From the NCBI GenBank assembly GCA_030616775.1, contig JAUWWQ010000002.1, forward strand, positions 62,001 through 126,000: DNA of 64,000 nt, read 5' to 3'. This DNA is from Planctomycetota bacterium (GTDB lineage: Bacteria; Planctomycetota; Phycisphaerae; UBA1845). The first letter of the stretch is position 1; each line of letters opens with the position of its first letter. The position numbers and the translations under genes are program-made. The notes beneath the pieces are model-generated. The model did no database searches. It was not told the DNA's origin and saw nothing but the letters and a program-made list of their open reading frames with translations. Positions 58,254 to 62,228 of the stretch are shown here, in pieces.

Positions 58254-58643
58254 TTGGACACAGTCGGAATTCACTACATGGCCGAGTTGTATGATTGTCC
58301 CCGCGATCTGCTCGACGATGAGACTTTTGTTATAGATACCTTGCGTCAGGCGGTCGACCGGGGGATGGCGACGCTACTCCACGAAGTGTCACATCATTTT
58401 CACCCGCAAGGTGTAACAGCGCTGGGTCTGATTGCGGAGTCGCACGTCGCCATCCACACTTGGCCTGAACATGGCTACGCGGCCGTTGACGTCTTTACTT
58501 GCGGCGATCGGGCCGATGCTGAGAAGGCCTGTCTGTACCTGGTGGGGGCTCTGCAGGCCGGCAGGCACACGATCCGCAAGCTGACCCGCGGGACACAGGT
58601 CGGTAGCCGGGTCGCCCAGGAACGGCCGGCGTCGGTAGGCTGA
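58254..58643 (+). CDS. speD: S-adenosylmethionine decarboxylase proenzyme
   Basis: 129 residues from TTG 58254 (GGAG about ten bases upstream). The autocleavage site is 'LIAESHVAIHTW': Glu62-Ser63, where Ser63 becomes the pyruvoyl cofactor. The catalytic partners His68 and Cys83 ('FTCG') fall at the same positions as in the Thermotoga enzyme (Ser63, His68, Cys83). This is the short prokaryotic class (SpeH type), about 120-130 residues. The product, decarboxylated AdoMet, is the aminopropyl donor for spermidine synthesis. The aminopropyltransferase gene follows 37 bases later. Confidence 0.93.
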   Translation: MDTVGIHYMAELYDCPRDLLDDETFVIDTLRQAVDRGMATLLHEVSHHFHPQGVTALGLIAESHVAIHTWPEHGYAAVDVFTCGDRADAEKACLYLVGALQAGRHTIRKLTRGTQVGSRVAQERPASVG

Positions 58644-58680
58644 TCCGATCATCGGCTGGGAGCTCGAAGGAGGCTGTGCC

Positions 58681-59634
58681 ATGCCCGGCAGCGAGGTGGG
58701 CACCGAATTCTGGATCTACGAGCATATCACTCCCTGGGACTTCTACGCTCACGGCGTCACCAGGGTGCTCGCATATCGAAGGACGCGGTTCCAGGAGATG
58801 TACATCGTGGAGACCGGCGTTTACGGCAAGGCGCTGGTTCTCGACGGCAAGTGGCAATCCTGTACCGGCGACGAGTTCCTCTATCACGAGCCGCTGGTTC
58901 ATCCGGCCATGCTTCTTCACGGCTCGCCGCGCAGCGTGCTCATCCTAGGTGGGGGTGAAGGTGCGACCGCGCGTGAGGTACTGCGATGGAAGACGGTAGA
59001 GCGGGCGGCAATGGTCGACATCGACGAGGAGGTGGTCGAGGCCTGCAGGGAGCACCTCGTCGAGATGCACCAGAAAGTCTTCGACGACCCGCGCCTGGAG
59101 GTCGTCATCGACGACGCCTTGAACGTTCTGGACACCACCAAGCAGACGTGGGACGTAATCATTTCCGATCTTTCGGATCCTATCGAGCATGGGCCTTCGT
59201 TCAAGCTTTTTACGAAGGAGTATTTTGAAAAGGCCAAAGGCGTGCTCGCGCCGGACGGCGTTTTCGTCATGCAGGCGGGGCCTGTGTCACCGGCCGAGTT
59301 GACCATGCACGCCCGATTGGTTCGGACAATGAAGACCGTGTTCGACCACGTTCAATCTTATTGCACCTACGTCCCTACCTACGCAGCACCATGGGGCTTC
59401 GCCTTGGGCACCGCCCGGCCGATCGATACCCGACCCGATCCCGGTCAAATCGATCGCCACCTGCAAGAGAAAACAACCGGCGGACTGCGAATGCTCGACG
59501 GTACTACCCTGCTGGGGATGCTCCAACTGCCCGTCCATATTCGGCGGGCAATAGCCGACGAAACGCGCATCTACACGCTGGAAGACCCGCCGAAGTTCTT
59601 CGGCAAGGGCACAGCCCCAGAGCAATCCGCCTGA
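58681..59634 (+). CDS. speE: polyamine aminopropyltransferase (spermidine synthase)
   Basis: 317 residues, ATG 58681. It transfers an aminopropyl group from decarboxylated AdoMet to putrescine or a related polyamine. Rossmann motif 'VLILGGGEGATAREVLRWKTVERAAMVDIDEEVVEACREH', the catalytic-loop region 'DVIISDLSDPIEHGPSFKLFTKEYFEKAKGVLAPDGVFVMQAG', and 'PTYAAPWGFALG' near the C terminus. It forms an operon with speD. Substrate (putrescine, agmatine or spermidine) is not fixed by the sequence. Confidence 0.93.
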   Translation: MPGSEVGTEFWIYEHITPWDFYAHGVTRVLAYRRTRFQEMYIVETGVYGKALVLDGKWQSCTGDEFLYHEPLVHPAMLLHGSPRSVLILGGGEGATAREVLRWKTVERAAMVDIDEEVVEACREHLVEMHQKVFDDPRLEVVIDDALNVLDTTKQTWDVIISDLSDPIEHGPSFKLFTKEYFEKAKGVLAPDGVFVMQAGPVSPAELTMHARLVRTMKTVFDHVQSYCTYVPTYAAPWGFALGTARPIDTRPDPGQIDRHLQEKTTGGLRMLDGTTLLGMLQLPVHIRRAIADETRIYTLEDPPKFFGKGTAPEQSA

Positions 59635-60302
59635 CCAATGCTTCTGACTGCAATCACGCCCACGCGGTCGAATCCCAGGGCGCCCCCACAGGCAACGCCA
59701 TGGGTCGTCCCGCCAGCAGCACAACCCACGCTAAAGACAGCCCGTTTACCAGGTTGGCGCGTGGGAAGTTAGGACAAATAGACAATAAAGGGGTATTGGG
59801 CAGTCTCGACACTCGGTACGCCAGGCGCCGTGGCAAACTAGACAAAGAGAACTGGCCATCGCGTGGCATCCGATGCTGTCTGGATGCTGATCGTTTCGTC
59901 AACACGAACACCTAGTGCGCAGGGAACTCCCACTGATGTTTTTCACATGATTTATCGCTTGACACATCCGAGATTTTTCAGGTAACATAATGCCCACACG
60001 TGGGCGGCGCGAAGTGTGACCGCATGTCATTCGGTGTTTCTCGCATCGCTGCCTGGAGGTGTATGAAGAATGCGCGGATGCTTTGGCACTCAAGCGTTCG
60101 AGCGAAACCCGCACGTCGCAGGCATCTTCTATCCGTATCCGGAGCGGGGAGGAATAGACACGTGTTCCCCTCCGAGCAGGTCAACAACGCTGTACGACGC
60201 GAGCGCAAGAAGAACGAGCCACCGGAAAACAAGGTATCCGGTGCTCTCACAGTTTTCGAGTTGTCACCGTTTTCCCTTTTCACCCTTGCAGGAGGCAGAA
60301 AA
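59635..60302. other. long leader region of the IPTL-CTERM gene
   Basis: About 670 bases. A promoter candidate lies at 59959-59988. The frame of the next gene is open from 60000 without a stop, but the only ATG with a good ribosome site is 60303. Short frames on the opposite strand (e.g. 59654-59911) are low-complexity and are left out. Confidence 0.45.
59959..59988 (+). promoter_or_regulatory. candidate sigma-70 promoter
   Basis: TTGACA (59959-59964) and TAACAT (59983-59988) are 18 bases apart; CATAAT at 59986-59991 is an alternative -10 at 21. It faces the IPTL-CTERM gene, 310 bases downstream. Confidence 0.4.
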
Positions 60303-62228
60303 ATGAACGCAAGGCTAGCTCAAATGGCTTGTTACATCGCTTACGTATTGCTCGCCGTCCCGCAGGCGCAAGCTCAGAATTGCTGTCAATGATGGAACGA
60401 CCCGTCTCCGGTCGGAGACACTGCGTGTGACGATGGCACTGTTGACCAGTACACCTGCGAGGTAACCTACGCGCCCCTCTGGGACCACTGCGAGTTTCAT
60501 GCGAATGCGTACTGCGATGGACAGGACAAATGTGTTCCCTACGCAGTTATCTACGTCGATGACGACGCACCGCTCGGTGGTGACGGGACAAGCTGGGCGA
60601 CGGGGTTCGAGTACCTTCAAGACGCCCTGGCTGTGGCAACCAGCGGTGATCAGATCCACGTAGCCGGTGGCACCTACAAACCCGACCAGGACGAAGCCGG
60701 GAATGTCACGCTGGGCGACCGCGCCGCTACATTTCACCTCATCAGTGGCGTATCGCTCTACGGCGGCTACGTGGGGCTGGCGGACCCCGGCAATCCAGAT
60801 GAACGTGACATCATTTCCTACGAGACGATCCTCACTGGCGACCTCAACAGTGATGACGATTCAGATCCAGGTAGTAGCTGCTGCGCCGCTAATGGGGCAC
60901 CGGGCTGCGATGACCCACTCTGCCAAGCAGCAGTGTGCGCGGAAGAGCCGAGCTGCTGCGACACCGAGTGGAGTAGAGTCTGCGCTCTGCTAGCATTGCT
61001 TCGGTGTTGCGATTCCTGCCGAAATACGTGCGAGAACAGCTACCACGTCGTCACAGGCAGCGGCACCGACCAGACAGCGGTCCTCGACGGGTTCACCATC
61101 ACTGCCGGCTATGCAAACGGCGTTGCCCCCCCGCAGGACGGCTGGGGCGGTGGGATGTACAACTATATGGGTAGCCCGACGGTGGCGAACTGCACGTTCC
61201 GCAACAACTCGGCTAATGCTGGTGGCGGGATGAACAACGACGTCAACAGCAACCCAAGGATAACCAATTGCACCTTCCTCGATAATATGGCCGAGTGCGC
61301 TGGTGCGCTGGAGATCTACCAAAGCAGCCCGACGGTGACCGACTGCACGTTTACCGGAAACTCTGCCCAGTATGGCGGTGGAGTTGAGAACTACGACCAA
61401 GGCCACCCGACGCTGACCAACTGCACTTTCACCGGCAACTTCGCCTCCCGTAATGGCGGTGGGATGGAGAACTATTTCAACAGCAGCCCAACGCTCATCA
61501 ACTGCACGTTCCAAGAAAACGTGGTCTATGGGGTGGGGCCTTATGTGGATTTCGGGGGGGCAGGGATAGACAACGGCAACAACAGCAGCCCAACGCTGAC
61601 TAACTGCACTTTCACCAGCAACTTGGCGTATGACTACGGCGGGGGGGTGTATAATCGCGATACGAGTAGCCCGACATTGACCGGATGCGTTTTGACCGGC
61701 AATTCAGCCAATGAAGATGGCGGTGGGATCTACGCCTCCAACTTGGACATCGAACTCATTAATTGTACCATCAGTGGAAATAGGGCAGGCAACCACGGTG
61801 GTGGCATCTTTGGAGGTTGCGTAGCCAAGAACACCATCGTTTGGGGCAACTGCGCGGATACCGCAGAGGGCGACGAATGGTACGGGGACGGAAGCTGCAG
61901 CTTAGTTGCATGTTGTAACGACCTGGGACCCGGTGTCGATGGTTTTGGCACGTGCGTTATTGACTGTGCCCTGGGACCTAATATCGAAGCGAACCCGGTT
62001 TTCTGCAAGCCGGAGCCCTGCGGGAACGCACCAACCGCCGAAGGTAAGTACTATCTTTGTCCGGGCTCCCCCTGCGCCGAGAACGATCCGTGTGGGAGAA
62101 TCGGAGCCCTCGGCCTCAAGAGCGTAATCCCTGCTGTCTCCGAGTGGGGGCTGATCCTGCTGACGCTCCTGCTGCTCACGGCGGGGAAGATTATCCTTCG
62201 TCGGCGCGGTAGGGCCGGGGCGGCATGA
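60303..62228 (+). CDS. IPTL-CTERM beta-helix surface protein interrupted by one in-frame UGA
   Basis: From ATG 60303 (AGGAGG seven bases upstream), residues 1-29 are a signal peptide ('YVLLAVPQAQAQNCCQ'). A TGA at 60390-60392 then interrupts a frame that is otherwise continuous for 642 codons. If it were read as Trp the joint would be CCQWWNDPSPVG, with Cys- and Asp-rich sequence after it. The body has about eight right-handed beta-helix-like repeats of ~30-40 residues ('SSPTLTNCTFTSNLAY...GGG', as in polymorphic/Pmp-like proteins). The C terminus 'IPAVSEWGLILLTLLLLTAGKIILRRR' is an IPTL-CTERM sorting signal. The gene is a recent nonsense mutant, a readthrough gene, or a sequencing error. Confidence 0.7.

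Follow-up and report, generated by a model that had tools for sequence, protein, structure and literature searches.

We propose that the UGA at position 60390 of the window (the whole 64,000-nucleotide stretch of planctomycete DNA analyzed here) is a selenocysteine (Sec) codon and that the gene containing it encodes an exported, surface-sorted beta-helix selenoprotein, a reading to which we attach a probability of about 0.89. Decoding as Sec is the simplest account of this UGA because homologs of the domain in which it lies have a Cys at this position, because the genome carries genes of the Sec machinery, and because the hairpin that follows shares its geometry with those found after further in-frame UGAs in this genus.

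An interrupted surface-protein gene with Cys-containing homologs

The frame at 60303-62228 on the forward strand comprises 642 codons and ends with its own stop; its sole internal stop is the TGA at 60390-60392 (codon 30), beyond which 611 codons are open. Translation thus confirmed the single in-frame TGA that a sequence-only reading had pointed out, as well as its placement of a signal peptide (MNARLAQMACYIAYVLLAVPQAQA, judged by eye) before the UGA and of a Cys-rich part directly after. The residues around the UGA, C27-C28-Q29-U30-W31, form a CxxU motif. The layout of the gene is as follows.

60290..60302, forward strand: Shine-Dalgarno-like AGGAGG (60290-60295) and spacer ahead of ATG 60303 (sequence)
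60303..60374, forward strand: signal peptide, residues 1-24, cleavage AQA/QNCCQU (translation; cleavage placed by eye)
60378..60539, forward strand: Cys-rich domain, residues 26-79, with 7 Cys and the UGA residue, homologous to the G021 and G017 domain that has Cys at the UGA (domain search, alignment)
60390..60392, forward strand: in-frame UGA, codon 30, putative Sec codon in CxxU (translation, homolog comparison)
60404..60419, forward strand: putative SECIS upper stem-loop, GUCUCC 60404-60409, loop GGUC 60410-60413, GGAGAC 60414-60419, UGA-loop distance 17 nt (folding, pattern count)
60540..62100, forward strand: parallel beta-helix/POMP-type repeats, limits approximate (domain searches; paralogous places in the genome)
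62127..62207, forward strand: IPTL-CTERM sorting motif, residues 609-635 (TIGR04174, PF18203)
62226..62228, forward strand: TGA ending the gene (translation)

The C-terminal IPTL-CTERM motif scored 22.6 bits with TIGR04174, above the cut-off of 20.5, and 20.3 bits with Pfam PF18203, slightly under the cut-off of 20.8. With its repeats and a sorting motif above NCBIfam cut-offs, the product resembles other beta-helix/POMP-repeat IPTL-CTERM proteins, and the beginning of its beta-helix is related to 14 other places in the same genome (4,449,241 bases in 108 contigs, completeness estimate 97.8%). Unlike the usual proteins of this kind, however, it adds an N-terminal Cys-rich domain containing the UGA. 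This domain gave no match in Pfam or NCBIfam, which sets the putative Sec apart from that of known bacterial selenoproteins, and domain searches found no protease domain in the protein. Because a single-sequence AlphaFold2 prediction reached a mean pLDDT of only 45.8, with values of about 31-38 across the Cys-rich domain, we make no structural claim for the protein. Upstream of the gene, at 58254-59634 of the window, lie adjacent genes for S-adenosylmethionine decarboxylase and spermidine synthase.

The genetic code itself appears standard in this region. Eight window ORFs were checked, of which six end with TGA, one with TAG and one with TAA; since TGA is thus a normal stop elsewhere in the window, a general reassignment of UGA was rejected, in agreement with the earlier view that a code change is unlikely. 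A restart of translation 3' of the UGA was also considered and judged less likely, the next listed start in the same frame being GTG 60633, which would drop both the signal peptide and the Cys domain.

A search of 51 family genomes with the N-terminal 89 residues returned the gene itself and three other loci, namely, two true homologs (in genomes G021 and G017) and one chance match. Both homologs share 44 to 50% identity with the window domain, keep all seven of its Cys, and carry TGC (Cys) where the window gene has its UGA, giving eight Cys/Sec positions when the UGA residue is counted. Compared with them, the window domain has a two-residue insertion near the hairpin. The TGC codons also lend no support to Trp (UGG) at the UGA position, the replacement that the sequence-only reading had put forward. 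In its own genome, the domain search found the Cys-rich domain in the window gene only. No UGA was seen in this domain in the relatives read: a profile built from the window domain and its two homologs and run over 397 genomes of the class gave the window gene, the two Cys homologs and a weak match in G197 (E 0.004). Further weak domain matches in seven genomes (G018, G028, G043, G048, G053, G064, and G080) were judged to be chance after nine loci had been read.

Selenocysteine machinery

Sec machinery and putative selenoproteins have been reported in planctomycetes, according to the part of PMC4807772 consulted here. In the genome of the window, SelA (581 bits) and SelB (360 bits) are encoded next to each other on contig C45, where rpoA, L17, and chorismate synthase are found as well; both score above cut-offs. 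Two SelDs scored above the cut-off, one of them with an in-frame TGA in SCAG*AGK, the usual Sec site of SelD; a SelD match with one TGA was found in 45 of the 51 family genomes, the site having been read in 22. The second SelD of the genome lacks a UGA and lies in a 741-codon frame (G000:C69:10000-10929, L075) whose upstream part is, as judged by eye, cysteine desulfurase-like; SelDs in comparably long frames occur in G001, G002, G019, G020, and G030.

With respect to tRNA-Sec, nothing in the genome exceeded the RF01852 cut-off among the 150 of 725 candidates scored (best 45.4 versus 47), the eight highest-scoring loci being tRNAs of other kinds. A tRNA-Sec pattern search gave 21 matches in three genomes. 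The match in the same-genus genome G001 was called tRNA-SeC by ARAGORN, and full-length matches to this tRNA occur in 40 of the 51 family genomes, G001 itself included; a match on contig C6 of the window's genome was rejected, being located inside a tRNA-Leu. In that assembly, only the last 38 nt (3' end) of the G001 tRNA-Sec were matched, on C24 (L131 2192-2229), and no complete tRNA-Sec gene was found. Partial 3' copies of tRNA-Sec are present on G000:C24 and in G001 (L133 4522-4593), G017, G020, G031, G039, G041, G042, and G049, and may be attachment-site remnants of elements integrating into tRNA-Sec.

Hairpin geometry after in-frame UGAs of the genus

Starting 11 nt after the UGA, the sequence GUCUCC[GGUC]GGAGAC (60404-60419, loop in brackets) can form six Watson-Crick pairs, with the loop 17 nt after the UGA and an energy of -9.8 kcal/mol as an 18-mer. 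It satisfies the bacterial SECIS (bSECIS) model as given in the consulted part of PMC13188914 (stem of 4 to 16 bp, loop of 3 to 9 nt, G in the first two loop positions, spacing of 16 to 37, MFE of -7.5 or lower). In its loose form this model is unselective: a stem of at least 4 bp with a G in the first two loop positions occurs at 2,693 of 4,043 TGAs here, about two thirds, and a stricter yardstick was therefore needed. The hairpins at the SelD sites in the family are mostly of the form gcgca[GGU..]ugcgc with a spacing of 32, and at least five Watson-Crick pairs, a loop beginning with GGU and a spacing of 16 to 37 were found in 17 of the 22 SelD sites read (25 SelD loci with a TGA were opened; L156, L161, and L164 were missed by the motif and are outside the 22).

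The same GGU test was applied to DNA of the window's genome in stretches selected around beta-helix genes, hence not a random sample, and was passed by 59 of 14,231 TGAs, including the window, SelD, and C48 (see below) sites. Eight of the 59 lie in frames open for at least 20 codons before and at least 60 codons after the TGA, these three sites among them; in the sister genome G001, eight GGU-hairpin TGAs lie in such frames, four of which are subtilases. When the signature was narrowed to at least five Watson-Crick pairs, a GGUC loop, and a distance of exactly 17 nt, a single one of the 14,231 TGAs was retained, the window UGA. In the G001 stretches, likewise chosen around beta-helix genes, the same strict signature was found at 4 of 11,367 TGAs, every one of them a subtilase UGA (four of its five), and in G002 at none of 3,714, the subtilase site of that genome having a G-U pair.

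Longer folds were no more stable than those of shuffled sequences (z of 0.51 for 61 nt, -0.37 for 38 nt, -0.36 for 41 nt, and -1.12 for 30 nt), and the minimum-energy fold of the 61 nt does not contain the hairpin. The encoded peptide itself favors the window hairpin: when the peptide was kept and codons were drawn by usage, the strict hairpin arose in 604 of 20,000 sequences and a looser one in 1,829 of 20,000. An Rfam scan of the locus gave one sub-threshold match, judged to be chance.

To look for other interrupted genes, stops with an open frame both before and after them were listed in 156,210 bases of the window's genome. Sixteen of the contexts were read by eye and none was taken for an internally interrupted gene, so that the known cases in this DNA were the window gene, a C48 surface gene, and the SelD of Sec type. 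In 483,331 bases, a larger sample, one more broken gene came up, again as judged by eye, the C3 subtilase/beta-helix gene. A codon-usage score for interrupted genes was weak, missing the window, C48, and SelD sites and listing the C3 subtilase (16 of 24 entries read). The in-frame UGAs concerned are the following.

L175 10160 (G000:C3:10160), L187 8001, L191 8510, L196 7925, L200 11047 and 5977, L207 (G002:C144): in-frame UGAs of secreted subtilase/beta-helix proteins in three same-genus genomes
G000:C48:10832 (L165 10832), minus strand: in-frame TGA of a C48 metalloprotease/beta-helix-like gene, hairpin cgtatc[GGTCG]gatacg, spacing 26

In the DNA fetched from three genomes of the genus, 11 subtilase stretches span the position of the C3 UGA, and seven of them have TGA there (one in the window's genome, five in G001, and one in G002), the other four having V, R, R, and R. 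Six of the seven UGAs are followed by a GGUC loop at 17 nt; the stem has at least five pairs in five of these (one including a G-U pair) and four in the sixth, L200 5977 of G001. The C3 subtilase UGA of the window's genome is followed by no GGU loop and has a hairpin ccatc[CGTGC]gatgg with a spacing of 21. Taken together, these genes appear to form a novel family of subtilases that contain Sec. In three alignments to solved structures, the residue at the UGA position is Thr (deseasin MCP-01), Leu (4tr2), or Ser (subtilisin 8397), and thus the subtilase UGA does not replace a Cys. The C48 gene, read through its TGA, has 1,376 codons and encodes an M12-type metalloprotease by Pfam, with beta-helix-like repeats seen by eye; its UGA falls in a beta-helix loop, and no Cys was seen at this position in relatives.

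When the window hairpin and the five subtilase hairpins were taken together, 88.9% of the cells pair and four of the six pairs change on both sides, a signal that is lost on sliding the partner; among the five subtilase hairpins alone, one A-U pair is replaced by C-G in one gene and by G-U in a different gene. This gives slight covariation support. As the window hairpin, which is not homologous to the others, supplies most of the changes, the main argument is instead the loop and distance common to stems that differ in sequence.

Alternatives, proposed mechanism, and significance

Readthrough, a fresh nonsense mutation, and a base error had been left side by side by the sequence-only reading. 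Our results favor programmed decoding among the three, and its kind, Sec insertion, had not been named there. Each of the remaining explanations implies that the genus-specific hairpin is a coincidence or serves another end. The best of them, although improbable, is a nonsense mutation from a Cys codon (TGC/TGT to TGA) that would make the gene a strain pseudogene followed by a chance hairpin. A single base change would suffice, no relative has a UGA in the Cys-rich domain, the other in-frame UGAs of the genome (C48, C3) are not at Cys positions, and the peptide favors the hairpin, as the synonymous draws demonstrated. Against such a mutation, the loop and exact spacing match those of conserved UGAs in other genes of the genus, SelA, SelB, and SelD are all encoded in the genome, and the frame stays open over its whole length beyond the UGA. 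A base-calling or assembly error hiding a sense codon is conceivable in a genome made of 108 contigs, but it is very improbable, since it would have to hit exactly where the genus-specific hairpin geometry follows. We give least credit to programmed readthrough by a near-cognate tRNA with no selenium involved: the V, R, R, and R of the subtilase stretches without a UGA are in its favor, Cys/Sec exchange failing to explain that family, but the Sec machinery is present, the hairpins are similar to the SECIS elements of SelD in this lineage, and the homologs of the window domain do have Cys.

We therefore retain Sec as the preferred reading of UGA 60390. From the frame, the machinery genes, the Sec/Cys pair, and the hairpin geometry with its match to other UGAs of the genus, all of which are observed, we infer Sec insertion, SelB binding, bridges, and function in the following model. 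Translation would start at ATG 60303, and the hairpin at 60404-60419 would serve as the bacterial SECIS for UGA 60390. SelB carrying Sec-tRNA would bind this hairpin, probably via the GGUC loop, and Sec would be placed as residue 30 instead of termination. Once the signal peptide is removed, the mature chain would begin with Q-N-C-C-Q-U-W. The seven Cys and one Sec of the N-terminal domain (eight Cys in the homologs) may form four bridges, one of them Se-S; the Sec would serve in this bridge or in a CxxU redox site, through which the exported domain could be redox-active. The beta-helix would be displayed, with the IPTL-CTERM tail sorting the protein. On a wider scale, we consider it fairly probable that the genus runs an exported cell-surface selenoproteome, with Sec in the window beta-helix protein, in the subtilases, and perhaps in the C48 metalloprotease/beta-helix protein, inserted via a GGUC-loop SECIS at 17 nt.

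The window gene shares with bacterial selenoproteins such as SelD and FdhA, as presented in the consulted part of PMC13188914, an in-frame UGA, a hairpin fitting the bSECIS model, Cys homologs, SelA/SelB/SelD, and a CxxU motif. In contrast, no beta-helix, IPTL-CTERM, or subtilase entry was seen in Table 1 of that source (119 families/subfamilies), as far as consulted, and no paper on a subtilase or IPTL-CTERM selenoprotein was found in open-access full text. A close parallel comes from the GOS metagenome, for which the portion of PMC2398784 consulted describes predicted Sec in a trypsin-like serine protease (at a Cys position) and in MucD (CxxU), both likewise proteins of secreted type. Unlike these proteases, the window protein has no protease domain, and its relatives in the genus are S8 subtilases whose UGA, in the sequences read, is not at a Cys position. 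Many selenoproteins are homologs of thiol oxidoreductases or carry redox motifs, and most of the uncharacterized ones are likely redox proteins, according to the 2026 review PMC13188914 (same part). The window UGA lies in a protein predicted to be exported and displayed, and the subtilase UGA of the genus lies at a non-Cys position.

Ordinary annotation would stop the gene at the UGA and thereby lose the protein. If the Sec reading is true, the gene would define a novel exported family among selenium-containing proteins. The constant loop and spacing supply an easy criterion by which further genes of this kind can be sought and the recognition specificity of the SelB of this lineage can be probed. 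If the surface selenoproteome is also true, Sec would have a role at the cell surface of these bacteria beyond the simple replacement of a catalytic Cys.
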